Of a stretch of 40,301 bases of DNA, positions 18,527 through 38,635 are shown in pieces (within the stretch, counting starts at the first letter, position 1; every line of letters begins with the position of its first letter). The notes below the pieces were generated by a model that was not told where the DNA came from, ran no database searches, and was given only the letters and a program-made list of their open reading frames with translations. Source of the DNA: an uncultured Pseudobutyrivibrio sp. (lineage in GTDB: Bacteria; Bacillota; Clostridia; Lachnospirales; Lachnospiraceae); the NCBI GenBank assembly GCA_946548305.1, contig CAMNPQ010000004.1:1-40301 (forward strand). Direction: 5' to 3'. The position numbers and the translations under genes were made by a program.

Positions 18527-19365
18527 AAACTTTATTAGCAACCGTTATTTACAAACAGGCAAGACCTTATCTTGATAACTTAATTAAATCCATAGCAAAT
18601 CAGACAGATAAAGACTTTAGCATTTTGTTGATTAATGACAATTATGAGAAGGAAGAATTGGCAGAGCTAGAGGGCGAGATAAAAGATGTGCTACATGGTA
18701 TAGAGGTTCATCTTGTTGATATCAGTAAAAAGCATTTATCTATTGCCGAGACCCGTATTGAGATGCTAAAGGAGGCCAAGGCGTTAGGCACTGACTTACT
18801 AATACTTGTGGATGCTGATGATGCAATTTCTTCTAATCGAATTGAAAATTACAAAAAGGCATGTGAGTTAGACAAAGTAAGCGTGTTCTTTTATAATAAT
18901 TTCATTACTGAAGGTGGTGAATATGTATTTAATCAATTGCCTGCTTCAGTTGATAGTATTAGGAGCATTGCTCAAAATAATTTTTTAGGCTTGTCGAATA
19001 CTGGCATAAGAATACAAAAACTAACTGACGATTTTTTAGACAGTTTAAAAGAAGGTGCAGCGGCAGTATTTGATTGGTATTTGTTTAGCCGTATAGTATT
19101 AGATGTGGGCAGTGGCAGATATATAAAAAACGCTGACACGATTTATCGTATATACGATAACAATACTGCAGGAACATCCAGAGATTTGGAAAAGGAATAT
19201 AGGGTAAAGGAAACACACTATAGTAATCTTGCAAAAAGATATAAATATTTTGAATATATGGCAGCTAAGCTAAAGACAATAAATAAAGATAGTCTTCAGC
19301 TTTCAAATAATCACCAGGGATATTGGTGGAGTGATATTAAAATGGAGGATACCTATGAGATTTAA
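18523..19365 (+). CDS. glycosyltransferase family 2-like (GT-A)
   Basis: A 280-residue GT-A type protein. The N-terminus LLATVIYKQARPYLDNLIKS and ANQTDKDFSILLINDN are the usual GT2 opening, followed by LLILVDADDAISSNRI containing the metal-binding D-x-D. The C-terminal part is shorter than in processive enzymes and has no membrane helix, so a single cytoplasmic sugar addition is expected. It overlaps the upstream GT4 by ATGA and the legI gene by 11 bases, since GGAGG for legI lies within this frame. Donor and acceptor unknown. Confidence 0.8.
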   Translation: MKTLLATVIYKQARPYLDNLIKSIANQTDKDFSILLINDNYEKEELAELEGEIKDVLHGIEVHLVDISKKHLSIAETRIEMLKEAKALGTDLLILVDADDAISSNRIENYKKACELDKVSVFFYNNFITEGGEYVFNQLPASVDSIRSIAQNNFLGLSNTGIRIQKLTDDFLDSLKEGAAAVFDWYLFSRIVLDVGSGRYIKNADTIYRIYDNNTAGTSRDLEKEYRVKETHYSNLAKRYKYFEYMAAKLKTINKDSLQLSNNHQGYWWSDIKMEDTYEI

Positions 19366-20407
19366 TTATGCAAATTTAGTAGCAGGTAGACAAAGACCTT
19401 ATGTTATTGCTGAACTTGGGGCAAATCACAATGGTGATATGGATTTGGCAAGAACACTTATAAAGACAGCCAAGGAATGTGGCGCAGATGCAGTAAAGCT
19501 ACAGTCCTGGACGGTGGATGACCTTTTCTCAAAGAAAAAATACGAGGATAATTATTTCCTTGGAGATGATTACAGAAATCGCACAGACTACACATTAAAG
19601 TCAATTATGGAAAAATATGCAGTTTCAAAGGAGCAGCATTTTGAACTTAAAAAGTATTGTGATGAATTGGACATAGATTTTTGCTCTACTCCATTTTCTA
19701 TGGCTGGAGCAGATATGCTGGTGGATGAATTACATGTTCCATTTTTAAAGATAGCATCACTGGATGTGGAAAATATTCCATTTTTGAAGCATGTAGGTGG
19801 CAAGGGTGTACCTGTAGTTATTTCTACAGGATTGACAGGTATGGAAGACGTGTGCGCAGCTATATCTGCTTTGGAGGAAGGCGGTTGTCATCAGATAGCT
19901 ATCCTTCACTGCGTATCAATGTATCCACCAACAGATGAAATTGTAAATCTCAATAACATGGATATGTACAACATGGTATTTGATTATCCTGTTGGTTACT
20001 CTGACCACACAATTGGAACTGTAGCACCAATCATGAGTATTGCAAAGAATGCCTGCATTATTGAAAAACACTTCACTATGGATAAGAACATGGAAGGCTG
20101 GGATCATAAGGTTAGTGCAGACCCGGCAGAGCTAAAGGCAATCTGCGATGCTGCAAGATCAGGCTATGCAATGCTTGGAAGCTACAGAAAAATAGTAGTA
20201 GAAGATGAAAAACGCCGTGAAGAATTCAAGCGTTCAATTGTGGCAAAGCATGATATGCCAGCTGGACATGTGCTTACAATGGATGACCTTGACTACAAGC
20301 GCCCAGGCACAGGCATTTCACCAAAATTCTACGAAATGGTGCTTGGCCGCAGCTTAAAGCACGACGTTAAATACGACGACATCTTCCAGTGGGGAGACTT
20401 ATCGTAG
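19355..20407 (+). CDS. legI: nonulosonate synthase, LegI/NeuB type
   Basis: A 350-residue enzyme of the sialic acid synthase family. The TIM-barrel half begins YVIAELGANHNGDMDLARTL and contains KLQSWTVDDLF, DFCSTPFSM, KIASLDVENIPFL, VVISTGLTGM, HCVSMYPPTDEIVNL, GYSDHTIG and EKHFTMDKNMEGWDH. The C-terminal 60 residues are a SAF (antifreeze-like) domain with RSIVAKHDMPAGHVLTMDDL and KRPGTGISP. It condenses phosphoenolpyruvate with a 6-carbon N-acyl amino sugar to a nine-carbon 2-keto acid. Resemblance to LegI (Cj1327) is by pattern and by the presence of legB, legC and ptmE; sialic or pseudaminic acid cannot be fully excluded. GGAGG (19344-19348) fixes ATG 19355. CGC/CGT arginine codons are frequent, as in legB. 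It is followed by element E and legF. Confidence 0.9.
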   Translation: MRFNYANLVAGRQRPYVIAELGANHNGDMDLARTLIKTAKECGADAVKLQSWTVDDLFSKKKYEDNYFLGDDYRNRTDYTLKSIMEKYAVSKEQHFELKKYCDELDIDFCSTPFSMAGADMLVDELHVPFLKIASLDVENIPFLKHVGGKGVPVVISTGLTGMEDVCAAISALEEGGCHQIAILHCVSMYPPTDEIVNLNNMDMYNMVFDYPVGYSDHTIGTVAPIMSIAKNACIIEKHFTMDKNMEGWDHKVSADPAELKAICDAARSGYAMLGSYRKIVVEDEKRREEFKRSIVAKHDMPAGHVLTMDDLDYKRPGTGISPKFYEMVLGRSLKHDVKYDDIFQWGDLS

Positions 20408-20525: not shown

Positions 20526-21227
20526 ATGATAGCGTTTATTCCAGCGAGAGGGGGCAGCAAAGGCGTCCCTGGGAAGAATATAAAAGAGCTTTGTGGCAAG
20601 CCTCTTATCGCATATACGATAGAGGCAGCCTTGAAGGCTGAAAAAATTGATAGAGTTATTGTCACTACAGATGACGAAGATATTGCTAAAGTGGCAAGAG
20701 AATATGGAGCAGAAGTTCCGTTCATGAGACCAGACTATTTGGCAAGTGACACTTCATCTGCTGTGGATGTGTATTTGCACGCAGCAGAATTTGTCATGGA
20801 TGAAACTGGTGAAAAGCTAGACAAGTTTATGGTATGCTTGCCCACAGTTCCTTGCAGGGATGCAAGACATATTGATGAGGCAATTGAAAAGTTTGTGGAT
20901 GATAGGGCTACTACCTTGATTTCATTTACAGAGGCTGAAGTGCCGCCAGGATGGTATCATACAGTTGACGAAAAAGGCAGAGTTTCAAATGCAGGCTTTG
21001 GAAAGGCTGGCTCAAACATTGCCAACCGCCAGACAAATGCTACCTATTACATACCAAATGGTGCAATTTACATACTTGATTATGATTTGCTAAAAGAAAA
21101 AAGGACATACTATTGCGATAATACAACCACATATGTAATGTCTAGAGAAGACTCTGTAGATATTGACTATCCAATTGATTTCGAAATCGCAGAGCTTATG
21201 ATGCGCAAGAAATTAGGAAATAATTAA
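20526..21227 (+). CDS. legF: CMP-nonulosonate synthetase, LegF/NeuA type
   Basis: A 233-residue acylneuraminate cytidylyltransferase. The N-terminal IPARGGSKGVPGKNIKELCG is the nucleotide-binding signature of NeuA/KdsB enzymes, followed by GKPLIAYTIEAAL, ATTLISFTEAE and a C-terminal EDSVDIDYPIDFEIAE metal-binding region. It activates the product of LegI with CTP, giving the CMP sugar used by transferases. The stop and the next start share a TAATG junction at 21227, coupling it to the DUF6077 protein. A second, divergent cytidylyltransferase is encoded at 32974-33618, implying two CMP-sugars in the locus. Confidence 0.9.
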   Translation: MIAFIPARGGSKGVPGKNIKELCGKPLIAYTIEAALKAEKIDRVIVTTDDEDIAKVAREYGAEVPFMRPDYLASDTSSAVDVYLHAAEFVMDETGEKLDKFMVCLPTVPCRDARHIDEAIEKFVDDRATTLISFTEAEVPPGWYHTVDEKGRVSNAGFGKAGSNIANRQTNATYYIPNGAIYILDYDLLKEKRTYYCDNTTTYVMSREDSVDIDYPIDFEIAELMMRKKLGNN

Positions 21228-22393
21228 TGATTAGAATAATTGCTTTACTATTGCACTTTACATTGGTGCCAATAATTTTAGGCAGACTAATTACATATAA
21301 AGCAAGCTGCAACTGGCTAGTGAAATATTTGATAGGATATTTCAGTAGCCTTGCTGTGTTCTATATACTATTTTCTTGGGTGGAATGGATTCAAAACTGG
21401 ACAACCTTTTGGGAACCAGTTACAGGGGGCTTTACACTTTTAATAAAGCTGTATACTGCAGTATTGGTTATTTTGGCTGTAATATGGGCTTGGCTCGACA
21501 GGAAAAATCTAAAAGCAGTGCCAGGGTACATAAAAAACACCACCTTGAAGGTTTTAGCTTGTCTTAAAAACGATAAGTTTTTGATTGTTTACAGCTTAAT
21601 ATTTGGTGTTTTGCTGCTGGTGCAAGGGTACATGGCATTTTCATATGAGATTAATGAATGGTCCTATGATGACTACGATTATGTGGTGTCCAGCAAAGAC
21701 ACTATTTCCAGCAACACAATTGCCTATGTAAATTTTATTGATGGTACCATGCCAAATGTGACTGAAAAAAGAGCTGTTGCTTCATGGGGCACTTATGTAG
21801 CCATGCTAGCAAAGGTGTCAGGCTTTGAGGTTACAACAGTTTATCACACATTACTACCGGTGATTTTATTGTTGGTTGCCTATATTAATTTTGCCTACAT
21901 ATCATCTATTTTATTTAAGAGAAATGATGACAGGACGATATTTATGATAATTACGGCTGTGGCATACATGTTTGGCTTGTATTCACATTATTCCATGACA
22001 TTTAGACTTTTAGGAGCTATATGGCAGGGAAAAGCGGTTTTATCAATTATAGCTATTCCATTTTTTATCTTTTATTTATTTGATTTATATGGAAAGAATA
22101 TAGAAAATGCAAATTTGCTACCAATAATTGGCGTTTCCCTTGGAATGAGCTCCCTTACATCGTTATCCATCATGTTTGTGCCAACAGTAGCATTTTTCAT
22201 GTTTATAATGATGTGTATTTACCACAAAAAAATAATTGGAATTAGATATTTGATTGCCTGCATGGCAGGTCCCCTATATTTGGCAATTTTTTATATAATG
22301 ATATGGATGCTCCAAAGTGATATGAAGAGCATAGATTTTAAATTTTTTAAGTTTAGAAAATCAACACATTGGTGGAAACAATGGCTACACTAA
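21227..22393 (+). CDS. DUF6077-type membrane protein, N-terminal part (probably broken gene)
   Basis: 388 residues with about nine or ten membrane helices. The outer loop YDDYDYVVSSKDTISSNTIA resembles the DUF6077 family, whose function is not established but whose topology is GT-C-like. The protein ends abruptly in a non-hydrophobic tail KSTHWWKQWLH just where family members continue with more helices. The continuation is found in the -1 frame immediately after, in the next entry. One extra A in the AAAA run at 22357-22360, or a one-base slip back on AAA at 22358-22360, would join the two frames as RKINTLVETMATLKYF with no gap. The joined product would be about 900 residues. Whether this is a real mutation, a sequencing error or a programmed event is open. 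Confidence 0.75.
   Translation: MIRIIALLLHFTLVPIILGRLITYKASCNWLVKYLIGYFSSLAVFYILFSWVEWIQNWTTFWEPVTGGFTLLIKLYTAVLVILAVIWAWLDRKNLKAVPGYIKNTTLKVLACLKNDKFLIVYSLIFGVLLLVQGYMAFSYEINEWSYDDYDYVVSSKDTISSNTIAYVNFIDGTMPNVTEKRAVASWGTYVAMLAKVSGFEVTTVYHTLLPVILLLVAYINFAYISSILFKRNDDRTIFMIITAVAYMFGLYSHYSMTFRLLGAIWQGKAVLSIIAIPFFIFYLFDLYGKNIENANLLPIIGVSLGMSSLTSLSIMFVPTVAFFMFIMMCIYHKKIIGIRYLIACMAGPLYLAIFYIMIWMLQSDMKSIDFKFFKFRKSTHWWKQWLH
22355..22393 (+). other. candidate frameshift joining the DUF6077 and metallo-hydrolase frames
   Basis: The upstream frame reads ...TTT AGA AAA TCA ACA and stops at 22391-22393. The downstream frame is closed by TAG at 22354-22356 and open from 22357. The shift must therefore occur between 22357 and the upstream stop. 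A single-base change at the A-run 22357-22360 produces a smooth protein. No strong stimulatory hairpin was evident just downstream. Confidence 0.6.
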
Positions 22394-30769: not shown

Positions 30770-30909
30770 TTAAAAGTGTATACATTCTGTGATAAAATAG
30801 TATAAAATTTGTTAAATGCCTTGATTTGGGGGTTAGTATCGGATAAACTCAAATTAGGCAAAAAGACGATGAAAATCGTTGTCAATTATACTATAGAAAG
30901 GTGAAGAAT
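30770..30909 (+). promoter_or_regulatory. leader region of the secreted repeat protein
   Basis: The 140-base gap has AT-rich promoter-like boxes (TATAAA at 30801-30806; a weaker TTGATT at 30821 with GATAAA near 30842) but no convincing -35/-10 pair. Closer to the gene is a small hairpin ACGAT-GAAA-ATCGT (30866-30879), a GNRA tetraloop. A ribosome site GAAAGGTGAAG precedes ATG 30910. The secreted protein gene probably has its own promoter here, since it ends in its own terminator. Confidence 0.35.
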
Positions 30910-31440
30910 ATGAAAAAGGTAACAAAAATATTATCAATGGCCATCGCTACCGTATTGGCGATATCTGTTTTTTCTTTTAGCAGTTCTGCAGCAATGTCTG
31001 CAGCAGGGCAGGCTCATCAGAGAGAGTTAACAACAGAAGAAGTTCAAGCAATTTCTACAATGTTTAAAGCTGATGAATATGTTAAGATGTATCCTGACGT
31101 TAAAAATGTTCTTGGTACAGACGAGGCAGTATTATTCGATCACTTTATTCACTTTGGTATCTGGGAGCAGAGACAGCCATCTGTAGCATTTAATGTGGAT
31201 TGCTATGCTTCATTTAATGCAGATTTACAAGAGATTTATGGTGACGATATTGTTTCTTATTATGTGCATTATGCTAATAATAACAAGAGCGAATCATGGA
31301 GAGCAACTCCTACACCATCACATGCATATTGGTATGGAAACACAGTGTATAGTGTATATGATTTTGTGAAAGGTCAGAAAGGACCAAAGGCTGGTGCAGT
31401 TCCAGTATTGAGTGTAAATTATCACCCAAATTATGATTGA
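30910..31440 (+). CDS. small secreted protein with two ~40-residue repeats
   Basis: 176 residues. Residues 1-28 form a typical signal peptide (KKVTKILSMAIATVLAISV then SSSAA). The mature part has two related repeats at about 52-91 and 94-131, each with the pattern Phe-x-Ala/Val-x-x-Tyr ... Asp-x-x-x-x-x-Gly-x-Asp ... His-x-x-x-Gly/Asn, for example YPDVKNVLGTDEAVLFDHF and HFGIWEQR. This repeat is widespread in surface proteins of clostridia, often beside cell-wall hydrolases, but has no defined activity. ATG 30910 is preferred over GTG 30901, which overlaps the ribosome site. The gene is followed by a strong terminator, so it is a transcription unit of its own. A surface or glycan-associated role is a guess. 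Confidence 0.78.
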   Translation: MKKVTKILSMAIATVLAISVFSFSSSAAMSAAGQAHQRELTTEEVQAISTMFKADEYVKMYPDVKNVLGTDEAVLFDHFIHFGIWEQRQPSVAFNVDCYASFNADLQEIYGDDIVSYYVHYANNNKSESWRATPTPSHAYWYGNTVYSVYDFVKGQKGPKAGAVPVLSVNYHPNYD

Positions 31441-31459: not shown

Positions 31460-31489
31460 AAGAGACTGAGCTATTCAGTCTCTTTTTTT
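31460..31489 (+). terminator. strong Rho-independent terminator
   Basis: AAGAGACTGA (31460-31469) pairs perfectly with TCAGTCTCTT (31475-31484) across a 5-base loop and runs straight into a T-tract to 31489. It ends the secreted-protein transcript and insulates the downstream three-gene unit. Confidence 0.9.
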
Positions 31490-31543: not shown

Positions 31544-32953
31544 GTGAAACAACCAACAATTGATAATTTTCTTGAGTTTGAAAAAAAACACAGCTGTAAT
31601 ACTCTGAGAATAGATGGAATTCCTATATGGACTCTTTATAGATATGAGATTCACAATACTATTAAGAGATATACAGTAGGGCGTGAGGAGGGAAGTCAAA
31701 CAGCTTTCTCTAAAGCCGAATTAATAAAAATGGCTTTAAATGCCATTAAGCCATTACCAAGAAAAAAGGCTGATGTAGTATTTGTGGCAGATGGTCGAAG
31801 AAATAGAAATATAGAAACAGGTGTATATGAAAATATCTTTTTTGACGAATTGGCAAAAAAATATAATTATCTTTTTCTAGAACATCCAGACAATCATACT
31901 CATCTTGAACCTAATGGTATGGAAAATATTTACTATACAGATAGAGTGGCATTTGAGACTAATATTGCTGTAAAAATATCCAAAAAATTTAATTCTAAAA
32001 AAAGATTGCAATATGCTCAAAAGATAAAGAAGGTATTTGGAACAGTTTTTAAAGATGTAAAAGACACATTTGGACCTGATGTCGAAGAGGAACTGACTGA
32101 AGGTTTTATTGACAGGATAATATACTATCAGATTAACAAAAGATTCTGTGGAAAAATCCTAGATAGAGTTCAGCCTAAACTAATAATGGAGCTTTGTTAT
32201 TATTCCATGGAGTGCTTTGCTTATAGTGCTTTAGGAAAAGAACGAGGGATTCCTACAGCTGAATATAGCCATGGCTTTGCCTTTCCAGGACTTACTCCGA
32301 TGCAATTTAATTCAGAAGACAATGTCGAAGTGCTACCAGACCATGAATTAATCTATAGTAGAACCCAGGAAGGAATTGTACATTTGCCTTCAGCTGTAAA
32401 GATGCATACGGTTGGATTTCCTTTTTTTGAAAGAGAAAGAGAAAAATATCAGACTAAGTTTCCTAAAAATGATAAAACAATATGTTTTATATCCACTGAG
32501 CGAGAAGGTATAGAGATAAGTAAAATTGCCGCCGCAGTATCAGAGAAAATAGGAGATTCTTATCATATAATATATAAGCTTCATCCCAAGGAGTTTTCAT
32601 TTTATAAAGAAAGATATCCATGGTTAGAGGGAAAAAGGTTAGAGATAATAGATACTATTGACAATCATATTTTTAGATACTTGGCAGAAAGTAAAATAAC
32701 GATAAGCACATGTTCGGCTTCTGTGTGGGAAAGTATAGGATTTGGTTGTGGAACCATTCTGCTTGATATAAATGATACTGGCTCAAATATGCCATATTTA
32801 GTAGAACAGCAGAAAGTGCCTCTTGTAAATACAGCTGATGAAGTAGTTGATATTATAAAAAATCACAGGGAAGTGTATGTGGATCCAGAGAGTATTTTTG
32901 AACCCAATGCTATGGAAAACATATGTAGCTTTATTGATGAGTTTGTAAAATAA
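31544..32953 (+). CDS. capsule-type glycosyltransferase (KpsS/polysialyltransferase-like GT-B)
   Basis: 469 residues, soluble. GTG 31544 follows AGAGGG (31532-31537); an in-frame GTG at 31502 overlaps the -10 box. The N-terminal region (FLEFEKKHSCNTLRIDGIPI) precedes two Rossmann-like halves. Motifs: AEYSHGFAF (H243), YKLHPKE (H347, P348) and STCSASVWESIGFG (388-401). A basic-HP loop followed by a Ser/Thr-rich loop is the active-site pattern of capsule enzymes that use CMP-Kdo or CMP-sialic acid. With a cytidylyltransferase encoded next, use of a CMP-activated keto acid sugar is a reasonable inference. It is similar in kind to the protein at 10391-11821 but clearly divergent. Confidence 0.65.
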   Translation: MKQPTIDNFLEFEKKHSCNTLRIDGIPIWTLYRYEIHNTIKRYTVGREEGSQTAFSKAELIKMALNAIKPLPRKKADVVFVADGRRNRNIETGVYENIFFDELAKKYNYLFLEHPDNHTHLEPNGMENIYYTDRVAFETNIAVKISKKFNSKKRLQYAQKIKKVFGTVFKDVKDTFGPDVEEELTEGFIDRIIYYQINKRFCGKILDRVQPKLIMELCYYSMECFAYSALGKERGIPTAEYSHGFAFPGLTPMQFNSEDNVEVLPDHELIYSRTQEGIVHLPSAVKMHTVGFPFFEREREKYQTKFPKNDKTICFISTEREGIEISKIAAAVSEKIGDSYHIIYKLHPKEFSFYKERYPWLEGKRLEIIDTIDNHIFRYLAESKITISTCSASVWESIGFGCGTILLDINDTGSNMPYLVEQQKVPLVNTADEVVDIIKNHREVYVDPESIFEPNAMENICSFIDEFVK

Positions 32954-32973
32954 GATAAATGGAGATATTCGAT

Positions 32974-33618
32974 ATGAAAACAGTTGCTATAATGCCTATA
33001 AAACTAAAGAATGAAAGATGTCCAGGAAAAAATACCAGGATATTAGGTGATAAGCCCTTATTGCAGTACGAATTAGATAGTCTAAAGGAAACGGGACTAT
33101 GTGATAGCATAAATGTTTATTGCAGCAGTGAAGAGGTAATTCCATTTCTACCTGAAGGTGTGAATTTTGTTAAGCGTCCTGCTGAGTTGGATTTGCCTAC
33201 ATCTAATTTTTCTCAGATTTTTGAGTGCTTTTCAAATGAGGTAGACGCGGACATCTATGTTTATGCTCACGCAACAGCCCCATTTATTACAAAAGAGACA
33301 ATGGAAAAGTGCATAACTGCTGTTACATCTGGTGAGTATGATTCAGCATTTTGCGCATTAAAGCTACAAGATTATCTATGGCAAGATGGAAAGCCTCTAA
33401 ATTTTGATGCAACAAATATTCCGCGTACACAGGATTTGACACCTATTTATCAAGAAACTTCTGGAGTATATGTATTTACAAAAGAAGTGTTTGAAAAAAA
33501 GCATAGACGTATAGGAGAGCACCCTTTCGTCAGTGAAGTTTCATTTAAGGAAGCGGTTGACATAGATAATCCAGAAGATTTTGTTTTAGCTGAAAAGCTT
33601 GTAGACATTGAGTTGTAA
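32974..33618 (+). CDS. acylneuraminate cytidylyltransferase-like enzyme (divergent NeuA family)
   Basis: 214 residues. The N-terminus AIMPIKLKNERCPGKNTRIL is the nucleotide-binding loop of the NeuA family, but the usual A-R-x-G-S-K-G is replaced by IKLKNER; the PGKN tail is kept. GDKPLLQYELDSL, YAHATAPFITKETMEKCI and the C-terminal EAVDIDNPEDFVLAE metal-site segment match CTP:keto-sugar cytidylyltransferases. ATG 32974 is chosen over 32959, which overlaps the ribosome site TGGAGAT. The product would be a CMP-linked 2-keto acid sugar. It differs clearly from LegF at 20526-21227, so a different substrate is likely, plausibly the product of the aldolase encoded next. Confidence 0.8.
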   Translation: MKTVAIMPIKLKNERCPGKNTRILGDKPLLQYELDSLKETGLCDSINVYCSSEEVIPFLPEGVNFVKRPAELDLPTSNFSQIFECFSNEVDADIYVYAHATAPFITKETMEKCITAVTSGEYDSAFCALKLQDYLWQDGKPLNFDATNIPRTQDLTPIYQETSGVYVFTKEVFEKKHRRIGEHPFVSEVSFKEAVDIDNPEDFVLAEKLVDIEL

Positions 33619-33637
33619 TAGACATGGAGGTGACAAA

Positions 33638-35224
33638 ATGAACAGGATAAAAGTATTAGACGTTACGCTGCGAGACGGTGGATGTGTCAATGATTTTAAT
33701 TTTGGACAGGATTATATGGAAAAAATACTTTCAGCGCAAGAGGCAGCGGGGATAGATATAATCGAAATGGGATACATTGATGACAAAGATGGTTCGAAAT
33801 CTGGTAGAACAAAATTTATAAGTGATACTTCCATAAAAGAAAGTATATTAAAAAATAAACATCCAGGGATAAAATATGTTGCCATGATTGATTATGGCAA
33901 ATATGATGTCAATAATTTGGCACCTAGAAGCGAAGATACTATTGATGGTATTAGAATGGCCTTTCACAAAAAAGATCGCTTTAATATGCTGGAAAAAGCA
34001 AAAATAATCATGGATAAGGGATATGAGTTCTATATTCAACCTATGATTACTATGCGTTATTCAGATGCTGAATTATTAGAGCTTATAGAGACTGTAAACG
34101 AAAAGCTAGCCGATGCCAGTGGGTTTTATATCGTTGATAGTTTCGGCGAGATGCGTCCTAATGATATGGAACGTATGCTAAATTTAGTTGATTACAATCT
34201 TACCAGAAAAATGACACTTGGATTTCATTCTCACAACAATTTACAGCTATCATATTCAAACGCCATAGCCATGCTACAATTTCCTACAACAAGAGAAATA
34301 ATGGTCGATAGTTCAATTATGGGAATGGGAAAAGGTGCTGGAAATCTTAACACCGAATTATTGTTAGAGCATTTAAATCTGTTCTATGGTGGAAATTACA
34401 CTGTACAGCCTTTGCTTGATGTAATAGACAAAGTAATAAATCAATTGCACAACGAGTTTTATTGGGGATATGCACCAGAGTATTATTTGTCATCAGCAAA
34501 TCATTGTACCCCAAGTTATGCCAGCTACTATTTTAATAAACATATGCTGCCAATAGACCAGGTGGGAGAACTGCTTAGCATGCTTGCAGAAGAGAAGAAA
34601 ATATCTTTTGACAAAGCGTATGCCGAAGAAGTTTATCTGGAATACAACCAAAGTAAAACAGTGGATGATACTAGGGTTGTGGACGATTTGAAATCGGAAA
34701 TATCAGGTAAAAAAGTCCTGTTAGTTGCACCTGGAAGAAGCGTAGGCAGCGTTATGGACAGGTTACGTGAACTGATAGACAATCCATCGGTATTTTCTGT
34801 CGGGTTAAATAATGACTTTGGTATGAGTATGAATTATATGCTTACAACCAGAGTAGAGGCATATAATGATGCAGTGAGTGAAGGAAAAAATGTAATAGTG
34901 CCTTCAAATATATCAAAGGGTGGGCGCGGAAACGTAAAAGTGCTTGATTATAGCAAATGGATAGATGTGGATGAGCAAACACATGATTCGGCAGCTGTAA
35001 TAGTATTAAATCTGCTACGAAAGTGCGATGTGAAAGAAATAATGCTTGCTGGATTCGATGGTTTTTCAGTGGATATTAATGAAAACTATTTTGATGCTTC
35101 TATGAGACATCCTTATAATGCAGAAGAAGCACAGAAACGCAATGAATACCATAAGAAACTGTTTTCTAGGGTCAGAGACGAAGGAATAAAACTAGAGTTC
35201 ATAACACCATCAAAGTATGAATAG
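33638..35224 (+). CDS. DRE-TIM aldolase (HOA/HMGL-like) with additional C-terminal Rossmann-like domain
   Basis: 528 residues. Residues 1-~300 form a DRE-TIM metallolyase barrel: LDVTLRDGG (R12, D13), DIIEMGYIDD, GFHSHNN metal-binding histidines (H197, H199) and MGMGKGAGNLNTE. This is closest in pattern to 4-hydroxy-2-oxovalerate aldolase-like proteins of unknown function found in polysaccharide loci. After a helical linker, residues ~357-528 form a second domain opening with KKVLLVAPGRSVG and containing VKEIMLAGFDGFSVDINENY and a closing LEFITPSKYE, reminiscent by eye of DUF115/GT42-type folds. GGAGGTGA before ATG 33638 is an excellent ribosome site. Predicted role: aldol condensation of a 2-oxo acid with an aldehyde to form a ulosonic acid for the neighbouring cytidylyltransferase. 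The reaction is inferred. Confidence 0.75.
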   Translation: MNRIKVLDVTLRDGGCVNDFNFGQDYMEKILSAQEAAGIDIIEMGYIDDKDGSKSGRTKFISDTSIKESILKNKHPGIKYVAMIDYGKYDVNNLAPRSEDTIDGIRMAFHKKDRFNMLEKAKIIMDKGYEFYIQPMITMRYSDAELLELIETVNEKLADASGFYIVDSFGEMRPNDMERMLNLVDYNLTRKMTLGFHSHNNLQLSYSNAIAMLQFPTTREIMVDSSIMGMGKGAGNLNTELLLEHLNLFYGGNYTVQPLLDVIDKVINQLHNEFYWGYAPEYYLSSANHCTPSYASYYFNKHMLPIDQVGELLSMLAEEKKISFDKAYAEEVYLEYNQSKTVDDTRVVDDLKSEISGKKVLLVAPGRSVGSVMDRLRELIDNPSVFSVGLNNDFGMSMNYMLTTRVEAYNDAVSEGKNVIVPSNISKGGRGNVKVLDYSKWIDVDEQTHDSAAVIVLNLLRKCDVKEIMLAGFDGFSVDINENYFDASMRHPYNAEEAQKRNEYHKKLFSRVRDEGIKLEFITPSKYE

Positions 35225-35226
35225 AA

Positions 35227-35267
35227 AAGAAGGAATAAGCCTATAACATAGAGGCTTATTCCTTCTT
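35227..35267. terminator. bidirectional terminator between convergent genes
   Basis: AAGAAGGAATAAGCCT (35227-35242) pairs perfectly over 16 bases with 35252-35267 across a 9-base loop. A T-rich tail follows on the plus strand and an A-run precedes it, giving T's on the minus strand. The right arm overlaps the last codons and stop of the flippase gene. It closes both the aldolase unit and the minus-strand gene. Confidence 0.9.
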
Positions 35268-36785
35268 TATTTTTCTAATGAGTTTTAGCTTCAACATGTC
35301 TATTTCTTCAATTTTCATTAGAGTAAGAATTAGGGCATAAACTATAAGGCCCAAACCTGCTGATAAAATAAAAATTAAAATACTGCTATTAAAAATATGC
35401 TTGATTCCTAAAACTATTATTACAAGGGCAAAAATGCCAGGAAGCTGTTTAACCAGAGTCGGAACAAATTGCTTTACAGTATATTCTGGCATATGTTTTT
35501 TTAACATATGAGAGTTGATAAGAAAATTAACTGTAAGACATATTGAACTAGCAATAGAAACTCCCATTATACCAATATATTTAGATAAGATAATGCTGCT
35601 AATTATGTTGATAGCAACGGCAAAAAAACCGGTAATCATAGGTCCTTTAGTGTCTTTAAAAGAATAGAGGACTCTAATCAGAATATCTCTGACTCCTGAG
35701 CTTGTGAAGCCTACCGCGTAGCCTATTAGTGCAGCACTGGTCATAACAAGGGATTCATGGTTAAAATTACCTCTATAATATGCAATTGATACGATTTCTT
35801 TAGAACACATACACGTAATTATCGTTATAGGTATCATCAAACATATCATAGAATTAATGGCGAAACACATAGTAGAACCTAGCTTTTCCTTATTGTCTTC
35901 AGCAATGTAATTTGAAAAATTAACATATAAGATATCTACCACATTATTTATAAGAATAATACAGACTACATCTTCAAGTGAGACTGCGTATGAAAGAGCG
36001 GTAGCACTACCATGAGCCAGTCCAGTTGAAATAGAGTTGTCTACTATTTTATTAATTTGAGAAACAGAGCCACCGATGAATATGGGCAGCGCCGTAAAAA
36101 GCACCGTTTTCACTTCTGGCACATCAGAAATACGAACAAATGAGAAAGTGAAATATCGTCGACCTCTTATTATTAGTAAAGCAGCAAAGAAAATATAGCT
36201 TAAATACTGTGCAAGAACTAATGAACCAACAGATAAAGTTGTATAAAAAAGTATGCAACAAAAAATGGTTATGCTGCTTGTGATAAAAGATTCCGTTCTG
36301 CTAACGACAAAGTCTTTATTTGAATCCATTAAAGATGTCCATATTAAAGTTATAACAGCAAAAAGAAAGAACGGATAACATATTTGTAAATAATGCATCA
36401 GTAAAGCTGTTTCTGTGGGATTATAAGTAGGTGCCAACATTTTGGCAATGAATGGTGTCAGCATGTAAACAATTAATAATACGAAAAGAACTATTGGTAA
36501 AAGTATCTCCAAACATGCTGAAATTATTTTTGATGCAGCGTCTCTTCCCTTTTGTACAAGGGTATGGGTATATATACTGACAATGGACAAGGTGATCGAT
36601 TTGATAAATGCAGAAGAAAGCATTCCTACAAAATTGAATGCAACATTGTATATATCAGTTTCAAAAGTGGTGCCAAAATAGTATGCAATTACAGCTTGTT
36701 TGACGAAGCCTAAAGCTTTAAAACAAAGAGTCAACACAGTGAGTATGGCGGTAGTAGCCATAATACTTCTAGTTTGCTTTGCCAT
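35256..36785 (-). CDS. MurJ/MviN-like lipid-linked oligosaccharide flippase
   Basis: 509 residues, 13-14 predicted membrane helices. The N-terminus RSIMATTAILTVLTLCFKAL followed by GFVKQAVIAYYFGTTFETDI is the characteristic opening of MurJ/MviN proteins of the MOP superfamily (R-E/K-x-x-x-A-x-x-FG pattern). GGAGG lies upstream of the ATG on the minus strand. The family flips lipid II or related undecaprenyl-linked glycans. In a glycan cluster that already has a Wzx-type flippase, this copy more likely serves a second glycan than peptidoglycan synthesis. It is the only minus-strand gene in the window and is transcribed toward the bidirectional terminator, so it is regulated separately from its neighbours. 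Confidence 0.88.
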   Translation of the reverse strand: MAKQTRSIMATTAILTVLTLCFKALGFVKQAVIAYYFGTTFETDIYNVAFNFVGMLSSAFIKSITLSIVSIYTHTLVQKGRDAASKIISACLEILLPIVLFVLLIVYMLTPFIAKMLAPTYNPTETALLMHYLQICYPFFLFAVITLIWTSLMDSNKDFVVSRTESFITSSITIFCCILFYTTLSVGSLVLAQYLSYIFFAALLIIRGRRYFTFSFVRISDVPEVKTVLFTALPIFIGGSVSQINKIVDNSISTGLAHGSATALSYAVSLEDVVCIILINNVVDILYVNFSNYIAEDNKEKLGSTMCFAINSMICLMIPITIITCMCSKEIVSIAYYRGNFNHESLVMTSAALIGYAVGFTSSGVRDILIRVLYSFKDTKGPMITGFFAVAINIISSIILSKYIGIMGVSIASSICLTVNFLINSHMLKKHMPEYTVKQFVPTLVKQLPGIFALVIIVLGIKHIFNSSILIFILSAGLGLIVYALILTLMKIEEIDMLKLKLIRKIKKE

Positions 36786-36931: not shown

Positions 36932-38635
36932 ATGTACGAATACACAGAAAAAACAAATGTGTTCAAATATATAATAGCAATAGTTTTAGTGATATGGTCT
37001 TTTGCCACTATAAGGTATGGGTTTTATGTTGACGAAAATGGTTTGCTGACTATTTACAAGGGTATATATCAAGGGCAGCGCATGTTTGTGGATAGCTGGG
37101 AGGCATTGCAAACAGGAGGAATACTGGCTTATCCCTTGATGGCGCTTTACTACAATGTTTTACAGCCGTTGTTTGATACCTATTCCATAAATGTTGGACT
37201 GGTCTTATATATGCGGTACTGTTACTTAATAGTAAAGCTTATTGTTGCAGTTTATTTATATTTGACACTCAAGGACAGTGAATACGAAAAGGGTGCTTTT
37301 TTAGCAGCAGCTTTTTACTACATGTATGTAGTGGACTGGAAAAATTTTTCATACAAATCATATTGTGATATAGCAATGACTCTTATTGTATGTTTTATAT
37401 TTAGATTTTATCAGACCAGAAAAAGCTATTATGCCATTCTGACAGCCGTGGCTGTATGCATTTCAGTTTTAGCATATCCTACCATGATTATTATGGCTGT
37501 GTTTATTGGAGCGTTCTGGCTGTATATGGCAATCAAGGATGAAGCCTCTAAGTGGACGATAATATCCTATACAATTGCTTGTCTGGTTATAGGACTGGCT
37601 GTAGTGATTTTTTTACAGCTTAACAGTGGTTGGGATAATATACTGGCTCAAATTTCAAATTTAGGGGATCAGGATTATGATGCTCCTATGTATATTAGAC
37701 TTGGTGAAATGCTTTTGCAGTATGTTGCGTTTGCAGCAATTTCATATATCCCAATAGGTCTGACCTGGTTGATAAATAAGGTCAAAGGATACGAAGATGA
37801 ATATATAGAACGAGCTGTATTATCCATTTATTTTGTGGCATTTATAATTGCCATATGTGCTCTTAGATGGGAGAGTATCAGCGTATCAAGATTTGTGTAT
37901 GGCAATTTGATTATTTTTTTCTGGTTTCCATATTTTATGAGAAATAAAGAAAGTGGCAATTATGTAAGAATTGGTGCTTATGGAAACAGGCAGGATGAGA
38001 ACAAAAAGATTCTTTGGACTGTATTTATATTCTCATGTGTTGCTCAGTTTGTATGGTCTATTTCTACCAATCAGGGCATTTCAGTGCCAGGGCACATGGC
38101 ACTATATGTAGTGCTGATTATGATTTTGCTGTTTTCAGATGAAGATATAGCTTATCCAATAATACGAGGCACACTGGCTATACTAGCAATCTTTTTTATG
38201 GGAATTTGGGTGGCTGACAGCAATGGAGGCTTTTGCAGTGCTTTTGACCACATGGTTTATGTGGAACGAGGAGCGTTAAAAGGAGTTGCTGTGCCTGAAG
38301 AAGAATATTATCTCAATGAATCAGTGATGAATCTTTTAGATGAGTATGTTACCGAAGAAGATACATTGCTTGTGGCATTCGGTGCTAACAGTGCAGGCTA
38401 TTTAAACAGCGATGCATGGCAGGGCACATATTCTGTATACGCAAGAACTCAGTTGAACACAAAGCTGATTGACTACTATGAGATAAATCCAGATAATATG
38501 GCAGACTACATGCTACTTGATACTGGACATGACAAATATCAGTATTTTTTAGAAAATGAAACAGGGCAATATCTGCTAAACTTATACCCTAATGAGGTGG
38601 CACAGGAGGGAGATTGTATACTTCTATCAAGATAA
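36932..38635 (+). CDS. polytopic membrane protein, putative GT-C type (unassigned)
   Basis: 567 residues with about 12 membrane helices and a soluble C-terminal tail of about 130 residues (from roughly EEEYYLNESVMNLLDEYV). The first outer loop FYVDENGLLTIYKGIYQGQR contains acidic residues in the position where GT-C enzymes keep a catalytic Asp/Glu. I do not recognise a precise family. The layout (many helices, one acidic first loop, C-terminal globular domain) fits lipid-linked sugar transferases acting outside the membrane. AGAGGTG lies just upstream of ATG 36932. The next, similar-sized membrane protein starts 15 bases after the stop, so the two are probably co-transcribed. Confidence 0.7.
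   Translation: MYEYTEKTNVFKYIIAIVLVIWSFATIRYGFYVDENGLLTIYKGIYQGQRMFVDSWEALQTGGILAYPLMALYYNVLQPLFDTYSINVGLVLYMRYCYLIVKLIVAVYLYLTLKDSEYEKGAFLAAAFYYMYVVDWKNFSYKSYCDIAMTLIVCFIFRFYQTRKSYYAILTAVAVCISVLAYPTMIIMAVFIGAFWLYMAIKDEASKWTIISYTIACLVIGLAVVIFLQLNSGWDNILAQISNLGDQDYDAPMYIRLGEMLLQYVAFAAISYIPIGLTWLINKVKGYEDEYIERAVLSIYFVAFIIAICALRWESISVSRFVYGNLIIFFWFPYFMRNKESGNYVRIGAYGNRQDENKKILWTVFIFSCVAQFVWSISTNQGISVPGHMALYVVLIMILLFSDEDIAYPIIRGTLAILAIFFMGIWVADSNGGFCSAFDHMVYVERGALKGVAVPEEEYYLNESVMNLLDEYVTEEDTLLVAFGANSAGYLNSDAWQGTYSVYARTQLNTKLIDYYEINPDNMADYMLLDTGHDKYQYFLENETGQYLLNLYPNEVAQEGDCILLSR

Follow-up and report, generated by a model that had tools for sequence, protein, structure and literature searches.

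Organization of the locus

The window, that is the whole stretch of 40,301 nucleotides analysed here from an uncultured Pseudobutyrivibrio sp., carries at 31544-35224 three ORFs, found intact and in one direction by an ORF check, for a GT-B transferase (GT), a CMP-sugar synthetase (CT) and an aldolase (ALD).

31460-31484, plus strand: intrinsic terminator 5′ of the three genes (11-bp stem, 3-nt loop, T-run)
31544-32953, plus strand: GT, GT-B transferase (GTG start at 31544 after GAGAGGG; stop at 32953)
32959-33618, plus strand: CT, CMP-sugar synthetase of divergent CTP_transf_3 type (PF02348 match)
33638-35224, plus strand: ALD, two-domain aldolase (ATG at 33638 after GGAGGTG; stop at 35222-35224)
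33641-34640 (end approximate), plus strand: N-terminal DRE-TIM/HMGL-like barrel of ALD (invariant motif residues)
34646-35221, plus strand: C-terminal domain of ALD, distantly MptE/DUF115-like (profile-level similarity)
35229-35265, no strand assigned: terminator 3′ of ALD (perfect 14-bp stem, read by eye)

The start of CT is likelier to be the ATG at 32974 than position 32959 since homologues start at that point. The arms of the 3′ hairpin (35229-35242 with 35252-35265) form an inverted repeat followed by TTTATTTTTCT, and its loop of 9 exceeds the maximum of 8 in the terminator scan, which therefore does not contain it. This terminator is probably bidirectional and overlaps the 3′ terminus of MurJ, a convergent gene (35256-36785, minus strand). 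The sequence-only reading had described a self-contained unit of three genes between two terminators. The flanking hairpins and the intact ORFs bear out the layout; self-contained the unit is not, with no phosphatase gene inside it and the KdsC-type phosphatase gene of the genome lying elsewhere. Also present in the window are NeuB (19331-20407) and another CTP_transf_3 gene, called LegF in the sequence-only reading (20526-21229). As a source of the three genes, phages gave two partial matches and plasmids 67 records, one of them covering at least 80% of the query, and neither explains the window.

The cytidylyltransferase and the transferase

CT matches PF02348 with 58.8 bits (cut-off 22.6) and is assigned at this level to the CMP-ulosonate synthetases (CTP_transf_3), but it scores 60.1 bits against the PseF equivalog TIGR03584 (cut-off 205.7) and so falls far outside PseF, for which reasons its earlier description as a divergent member of the NeuA family is correct. 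R20, K24, N25, D201 and D207, presumably the catalytic residues, each show 95% or higher conservation across 44 rows of the 47-row alignment (L076, L128 and LegF, divergent, were left out). In the family sample, five NeuB-linked cytidylyltransferases score 62-71 bits against the window CT and those linked to ALD or KdsA 187-370. KdsA adjoins three CTs related to that of the window, which form one clade (99/92) with ALD-KdsC-linked sisters (100/99); the window CT lies in a separate clade of 10 rows (100/100), set apart at eight fixed positions from both the KdsA-linked CTs and their two ALD-linked sisters, in a tree with 14 of 44 forks open. Among window-type CTs (at least 129 bits, 14 genomes) ALD adjoins 11 and KdsA two (L126 and L127), with one at a contig end.

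The predicted structure of GT has the GT-B fold, and K345, H347, P348 and E350 (K-x-H-P-x-E) are invariant in all 11 rows of the alignment, in keeping with the earlier claim of a GT-B transferase with a basic-HP motif, while no known GT family in Pfam or NCBIfam scores above its cut-off. According to two reports, the HP motif of CMP-sugar-using GT-B enzymes binds the CMP donor (PMC2169525; PMC10148158). GT is a putative CMP-ulosonate transferase; NeuB occurs in five of eight loci of its distant homologues.

The two domains of the aldolase

The N-terminal barrel, probably the catalytic part of ALD judging from its residues, identifies the protein as a DRE-TIM (HMGL-like) metal aldolase through its PF00682 fold and its RD, HxH and GN motifs. 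R11 D12 G13, H196, H198, N200, G228-G230, G234 and N235 (residue 1 being the one after Met) are invariant in all 30 aligned rows, the window included, and the DRE-TIM motifs are intact as first read. Pfam gives HMGL-like only, with no homology to KdsA or NeuB, and NCBIfam only DRE-TIM enzymes and one weak SteA match. Against the 4-hydroxy-2-oxovalerate aldolase equivalog (TIGR03217) ALD scores 83.2 bits, below the cut-off of 286. DmpG, an enzyme of that activity (PDB 1nvm), has the fold and the RDG, HxH and GN motifs in common with ALD, but the window ALD lacks the His two residues past RDG and carries an additional domain of about 190 residues. The proton relay would differ from that of DmpG because the position of DmpG His21 is Cys15 in the window ALD (Tyr, Phe, Arg or His in relatives); in further contrast to DmpG, no aldehyde dehydrogenase was found among the 20 window proteins scanned. 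A related structure, BVU_2661 of Bacteroides vulgatus (PDB 3dxi, N-terminal domain), is titled 'putative aldolase' only and a search under that name found no paper. Relatives of ALD are annotated in records as 'aldolase catalytic domain-containing protein' or 'hypothetical protein'. The ALD tree carries long-branch warnings. A single-domain paralogue (L002/L090) lies elsewhere in the genome of the window; the eight loci of such paralogues (L084-L091), having neither CT nor a thiamine-diphosphate enzyme near, were set aside.

The second domain (residues 335-527 approximately) is absent from the sequence-only reading. It aligns with an MptE-like cluster (c12) by hhalign at 84.5% (55.4% in the reverse direction) against at most 12.3% for eight control families, and its match to PF01973 (E 0.036, 14.3 bits, cut-off 34.6) leaves it outside MptE-like/DUF115 proper. 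MptE-like viral models are among the matches of the whole ALD model. Fold searches with that model are little informative on this domain because the barrel fills the PDB lists.

Gene neighbourhoods of the aldolase family

A cytidylyltransferase directly adjoins 23 of 46 two-domain ALDs of relatives, the window included, and in 19 a thiamine-diphosphate (ALS/YerE-like) enzyme is nearby instead, marking a sister branch of ALD. This survey drew on 60 stretches from among the family matches, higher-scoring first, leaving out ORFs of 420 residues or fewer and L067 (by eye, an ALD fused to a LicD-like part). In the best 80 of 577 matches, a cytidylyltransferase is adjacent in 46 of 80 named loci, and 12 of the 80 have neither partner, including L141 and L142 with ALDs 55% and 54% identical to that of the window. 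With L200 (no ORF) left out of the same 80, a CT-type gene occupies the −1 position of ALD in 44 of 79 loci, other positions holding at most two each, and 29 of 79 have no CT within five genes. The neighbourhood survey proposed in the sequence-only reading is positive, the link being frequent and not universal. Neighbour HMMs were built from family clusters and loci, and their matches to these source loci are therefore to some extent built in; the family and genome-contig samples overlap and are not independent (G021:C1/L165, G105:C100/L166, G194:C10/L184, G106:C11/L207 and G179:C14/L215). CT-linked ALDs occur in records titled Bacillota, Bacteroidota, Gastranaerophilales/Cyanobacteria and Fusobacterium. 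A Leisingera plasmid carries three consecutive genes, for ALD, a KdsB-like protein and a protein annotated as HAD hydrolase; on checking, the KdsB-like gene was confirmed and the HAD gene had no NCBIfam match.

Phosphatase genes are also frequent. Again in the best 80 of 577 matches, KdsC or HAD genes stand at +1 of ALD in 32 of 75 loci, and 22 of the 46 CT-adjacent loci have a KdsC-type or HAD phosphatase gene no more than two genes from ALD, the other 24 having none at that distance. Above cut-off, 10 of 15 KdsC genes adjoin ALD and one is one gene off. KdsB-like genes occur in 18 family genomes (E ≤ 1e-20; 13 of 18 above cut-off), adjoining ALD in 12, within 7 kb in three, at 16 kb in one and one gene from KdsA in two.

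A proposed route to CMP-ulosonates

To our knowledge, all CMP-ulosonate pathways (sialic, legionaminic, pseudaminic and Kdo) use a PEP-dependent synthase for the carbon skeleton, and a literature search for an aldolase-cytidylyltransferase pathway found no paper. From linkage and family assignment it is likely that GT, CT and ALD are the central genes of a CMP-ulosonate pathway, with ALD, as a divalent-metal pyruvate aldolase, in the role of KdsA or NeuB. Pyruvate, as its enolate, would be added by ALD to a phosphorylated aldose, yielding a 2-keto-3-deoxy-ulosonate phosphate, from which a KdsC-type or other HAD phosphatase would take the phosphate; CT, a family member whose activity is predicted, would form the CMP-ulosonate and the HP-motif GT-B enzyme would move the ulosonate into a surface polysaccharide. 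The product would be a Kdo-type ulosonate, Kdo or an analogue. The candidate pathway first read from the sequence is thereby supported, its linkage to CT surviving and CT-ALD pairs without NeuB existing. The Kdo pathway, with ALD in the slot of KdsA, is a closer parallel than the sialic acid chemistry suggested there. Beside or near window-type CTs and KdsB-like genes this slot is taken by ALD in most genomes and by KdsA in two of each set, which favours the replacement. Counting against the pathway are the rarity of KdsD in CT-ALD genomes, the two systems of L138 described below, the altered DmpG His21 position, the 19 of 46 relatives linked to a thiamine-diphosphate enzyme, the 12 of 80 loci with neither partner (best 80 of 577 matches) and the 24 of 46 CT-adjacent loci with no phosphatase close to ALD. 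As in the Kdo pathway, the synthase gene, here ALD, is surrounded by KdsC and by KdsB-like genes or a related CT, joined by KdsD in two loci; unlike it, a DRE-TIM aldolase stands in place of KdsA, which scores above cut-off in only one of 26 CT-ALD genomes, and KdsD is mostly missing. The gap left by KdsA is plain in G153 (99% complete), which has KdsD adjoining ALD (308 bits), KdsC (149 bits), CT and GT, with no KdsA (best 19.9 bits). The proposed route would share with the sialic, legionaminic and pseudaminic pathways (NeuB with NeuA, LegF or PseF) a CTP_transf_3 enzyme that converts a 2-keto-3-deoxy acid to its CMP derivative, but NeuB is not the partner of CT-ALD and CT is distant from PseF.

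In the two loci with KdsD adjoining ALD (L083 and L264, from the genus of the window and in the order GT-CT-ALD-KdsD) ALD would take D-arabinose 5-phosphate as its aldehyde and yield Kdo 8-phosphate. It is possible, if doubtful, that this narrower reading applies everywhere, with ALD an alternative Kdo 8-phosphate synthase using D-arabinose 5-phosphate and pyruvate, and CMP-Kdo the product in the window also. It would be consistent with the KdsB-like and KdsC genes around many ALDs, with the nesting of KdsA-linked CTs among ALD-linked ones and with GTs 77-80% identical preceding cassettes with KdsD (L083 and L264) and without it (L266 and L267). Against this, the window CT clade stands apart from the KdsA-linked one by its fixed differences, KdsD scores above cut-off in one of the 26 CT-ALD genomes and L138 holds CT-ALD side by side with CT-KdsA-KdsD-KdsC. 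The last two observations weaken the view that every CT-ALD unit makes Kdo, and L138 suggests that the products of the two systems differ. Since KdsD adjoins KdsA in five of six KdsA loci inspected (L126, L127, L138, L277 and L278; not L135) and is so rare with CT-ALD, most ALDs probably use another aldehyde. KdsA was named by NCBIfam in L126 and L127 and by HMMs built in the analysis in L138, L277 and L278 (G116 and G184 also by separate search); a phylum-level scan for it gave 36 of 398 genomes. The genome of the window (G000, 78% complete, which makes absences weak) has neither KdsA nor KdsD above cut-off and lacks KdsB matches at E ≤ 1e-20, and its KdsC lies outside the three genes, so that the full Kdo pathway (KdsD, KdsA, KdsC and KdsB) was not found there.

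Of the 19 relatives with ALS/YerE-like enzymes 14 also have RfbF-/RfbH-cluster genes, resembling YerE/ErwE branched-sugar pathways, and the substrates of ErwE are reported to include 4-hydroxy-2-oxo acids (PMC12247030). ALD in the CT branch might likewise send its hydroxylated 2-keto acid elsewhere while CT activates something else, which is improbable because CT and a thiamine-diphosphate enzyme occur together in none of 46 loci and in one of 79 (best 80 of 577 matches), YerE/ErwE-linked ALDs lacking a directly adjacent CMP-ulosonate-type cytidylyltransferase, and because 25 of the 26 CT-ALD genomes have no KdsA above cut-off to supply CT or KdsB.

It is still harder to accept that CT serves the legionaminic pathway, activating the LegI product, with an unrelated or catabolic ALD in the operon by chance, as the NeuB and LegF genes of the window might suggest. 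NeuB scores above 100 bits in 16 of the 26 CT-ALD genomes, but CT-ALD is kept in the 10 where it is missing, CT prefers the −1 position of ALD, another cytidylyltransferase already adjoins NeuB in the window and the NeuB-linked enzymes are the more distant from CT. At the Pfam cut-off (22.1 bits) 24 of 26 match NeuB and two do not; in eight of the 10 genomes, 28-42-bit matches coincide with sub-cut-off matches to the KdsA model and are read from this as DAHP synthases, for which reason NeuB was counted above 100 bits only. G175, whose CT is 76% identical to that of the window, and G158 have CT-ALD and no NeuB or KdsA match at E ≤ 0.001. CT thus need not depend on LegI, the dependence that would have spoken against the original proposal.

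Pyruvate aldolases can run in either direction, and some of them, sialic acid lyase for one, serve catabolism, but a role for ALD as a lyase degrading or editing the ulosonate of another enzyme is very improbable, G175 and G158 having no known ulosonate source.

A possible two-output module

Beyond the favoured CMP-ulosonate pathway, ALD and a phosphatase could, tentatively and with the odds against it, constitute a widespread and undescribed module forming 2-keto-3-deoxy sugar acids from pyruvate, with two interchangeable outputs: in the CT branch the acids would be activated with CMP, and in the thiamine-diphosphate branch they would be grafted, with decarboxylation, onto CDP-4-keto sugars. 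In this speculative scheme the C-terminal domain of ALD would replace KdsD, supplying or handing over the aldose phosphate as KdsD does for KdsA. The idea arises because, within one genus and behind orthologous GTs, a one-domain ALD precedes KdsD in two loci (L083 and L264) while a two-domain ALD has no adjacent KdsD in four (the window, L265, L266 and L267). It is made less likely by the one-domain CT- or KdsB-linked ALDs of L270, L271 and L273 (first ALD), which have no KdsD in the fetched stretch.

Implications

The proposed aldolase route is represented in numerous Bacillota and also in records from other phyla. If the pathway proposed here is correct, ulosonates would have been overlooked by genome surveys keyed to NeuB or KdsA, KdsB-like and KdsC genes without KdsA would be explained and the relatives of ALD that carry such generic annotations in records would gain a function. 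It would also offer new aldolases for preparing Kdo- and sialic-acid-like sugars and would link two branches of rare-sugar chemistry.

Organization of the Unit and the Proposed Pathway

The GT-B transferase (GT), the CTP_transf_3 cytidylyltransferase (CT) and the DRE-TIM aldolase (ALD) of the window are encoded by three intact genes in the same direction, with intergenic gaps of 5 and 19 bases and a plausible ribosome-binding site before each gene, the unit being bounded on both sides as follows:

31460-31484, upstream terminator (terminator scan)
31544-35224, three-gene unit GT-CT-ALD
35229-35265, downstream 14-bp inverted repeat with a T-run (read by eye)

The assembly holding the window is 78% complete. 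Flanking the unit are a secreted-looking protein of 179 residues (30901-31440) and a protein of 567 residues (36932-38635), both without a Pfam match, and relatives of both also adjoin the GT-CT-ALD unit at a locus from the same genus (L083).

From gene order, protein families, motifs and distributions we infer a pathway in which ALD would join pyruvate to an aldose phosphate, yielding an ulosonate phosphate that would be dephosphorylated by a KdsC/HAD phosphatase, activated with CMP by CT and transferred by GT. The best explanation is that ALD would stand in for the PEP-using ulosonate synthases KdsA and NeuB.

The Aldolase as a Probable Stand-In for KdsA

KdsB-like genes (E ≤ 1e-20) were found in 18 of the 200 family genomes, 13 of these over the cut-off. 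By coordinates, 12 of the 18 directly adjoin ALD, three lie within 7 kb of it (genomes G028, G090, G179), one is on the same contig 16 kb from an ALD-LicD-like fusion (G129) and two (G116, G184) lie a gene away from KdsA, which is flanked by KdsD on the far side. In the G129 fusion (L067, 5780-8017, and L279) the ALD barrel is joined to a LicD-like part, recognized by eye, in place of the usual C-terminal domain. Window-type CT genes scoring at least 129 bits occur in 14 genomes, 11 with ALD, two with KdsA-KdsD (loci L126 and L127; KdsA 396-397 bits, cut-off 314) and one, the divergent CT of L128 (G098), near a contig end with its partner out of view. Thus every KdsB-like or window-type cytidylyltransferase with readable surroundings in this sample shares its contig with KdsA or ALD. 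In the CT tree all three CTs linked to KdsA group in a single clade, and the sister CTs are linked to ALD-KdsC.

KdsA was over the cut-off in one of the 26 genomes with a CT-ALD pair (G052), at a separate locus (L135) where the adjacent gene is cytidylyltransferase-like by eye, yet gave no BLAST match to the CT queries. NeuB scored above 100 bits in 16 of the 26. Of the other ten, G175 and G158 gave no match and eight gave weak matches only (28-42 bits), at the places of the DAHP-synthase-like matches from the KdsA search. Pfam's low NeuB cut-off would count 24 of 26. In G175 the gene order is CT-ALD-KdsC, with CT 76% and ALD 56% identical to those of the window. NeuB would not be needed for CT-ALD.

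Phosphatase and KdsD Genes

Among the best 80 of 577 loci, a HAD/KdsC phosphatase occupies position +1 of ALD in 32 of 75, and lies at most two genes away in 22 of 46 CT-adjacent loci, with none that close in 24. KdsC was over the cut-off in 15 of 30 genomes searched, directly adjoining ALD in 10 and one gene off in another; in the window's genome it sits on another contig, in a place conserved in G153. The frequency of phosphatase genes near ALD points to a phosphorylated aldehyde substrate.

ALD could simply be an alternative Kdo 8-phosphate synthase. This reading is a special case of the best explanation, and the confidences of the competing readings therefore need not sum to one. Arabinose 5-phosphate as the aldehyde, and therefore Kdo as the product, fits the loci with KdsD. 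KdsD was over the cut-off in one of the 26 CT-ALD genomes, G153 of the same genus, directly after ALD; this genome has KdsD, KdsC, CT and GT but KdsA is absent (best 19.9 bits), and three NeuB genes are present as well. The order GT-CT-ALD-KdsD recurs at another locus from this genus (L264), and three others (L265, L266, L267) have GT-CT-ALD with no adjoining KdsD. In both KdsD loci ALD is one-domain (336-337 residues, no match to the C-terminal domain), and the ALDs of the same-genus loci without adjoining KdsD carry this domain (136-139 bits). KdsD was not found in the fetched stretches of three loci with one-domain CT- or KdsB-linked ALDs (L270, L271, L273). It adjoins KdsA in five KdsA loci (L126, L127, L138, L277, L278), not in the sixth, L135. 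At L138 (5335-13469) a CT-ALD unit and a CT-KdsA-KdsD-KdsC unit lie 3 kb apart, which speaks for a product of window-type ALD that differs from that of KdsA. Given how rare KdsD is, the window type may use an aldehyde other than arabinose 5-phosphate.

Partners of the Aldolase

ALD relatives (E ≤ 1e-15, single-domain paralogues counted) are present in 87 of the 200 family genomes. Among 46 two-domain ALDs placed in their neighborhoods, that of the window included, CT directly adjoins 23, none of which has a thiamine-diphosphate enzyme within five genes; another 19 have such an enzyme and no adjoining CT, and four have neither partner by the adjacency rule. Of these four, L048 and L064 have CT further along, L050 has KdsC and L047 shows none of these genes. 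Another sample, which shares some members with the first, comprises 80 named loci, the best-scoring of 577; here CT adjoins ALD in 46 (one of which, L140 of Lacrimispora algidixylanolytica, also has a thiamine-diphosphate enzyme), is further off in four and is lacking in 17 with a thiamine-diphosphate enzyme; 12 have neither and one has no ORF. The 12 include L141 and L142, with ALDs 54-55% identical to that of the window. A CT-type gene stands at -1 of ALD in 44 of 79 loci of this sample and in at most two at any other position. The starred branches of the ALD tree, which carries long-branch warnings, force at least six changes of the CT label, suggesting that partners have probably been exchanged repeatedly.

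Single loci show further arrangements. In L173, from a Candidatus Gastranaerophilales MAG, a pair of KdsB-like genes precedes two CT-ALD pairs in tandem, an arrangement that would suit the parallel synthesis of several ulosonates. L174 and L201, on contigs titled as archaeal MAGs with mis-binning possible, have ALD with a HAD phosphatase, L201 also with a KdsB-like gene.

Relation to Known Systems

Of the 19 ALDs linked to a thiamine-diphosphate enzyme, 11 have a cluster c6 HAD gene within five genes, and 14 have an RfbF- or RfbH-cluster gene within that distance. ErwE joins hydroxylated 2-oxo acids such as 4-hydroxy-2-oxobutanoate to a CDP-4-keto-3,6-dideoxyglucose acceptor, the coupling having been demonstrated in vitro using an acceptor analogue (PMC12247030), and is a fitting precedent for this branch. 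An aldolase would naturally supply such acids, a link not found in the literature searched. Outside Bacillota, a unit of this branch is seen on a Desulfobaculum bizertense plasmid (L092), where RfbH is followed by two genes of transketolase type and then by an ALD relative.

No account of a route combining an aldolase with a cytidylyltransferase was found in the literature searched, which covers a minority of subscription journals and no bioRxiv preprints. CMP-ulosonate synthesis is known; the new element would be a synthase non-homologous to the usual ones.
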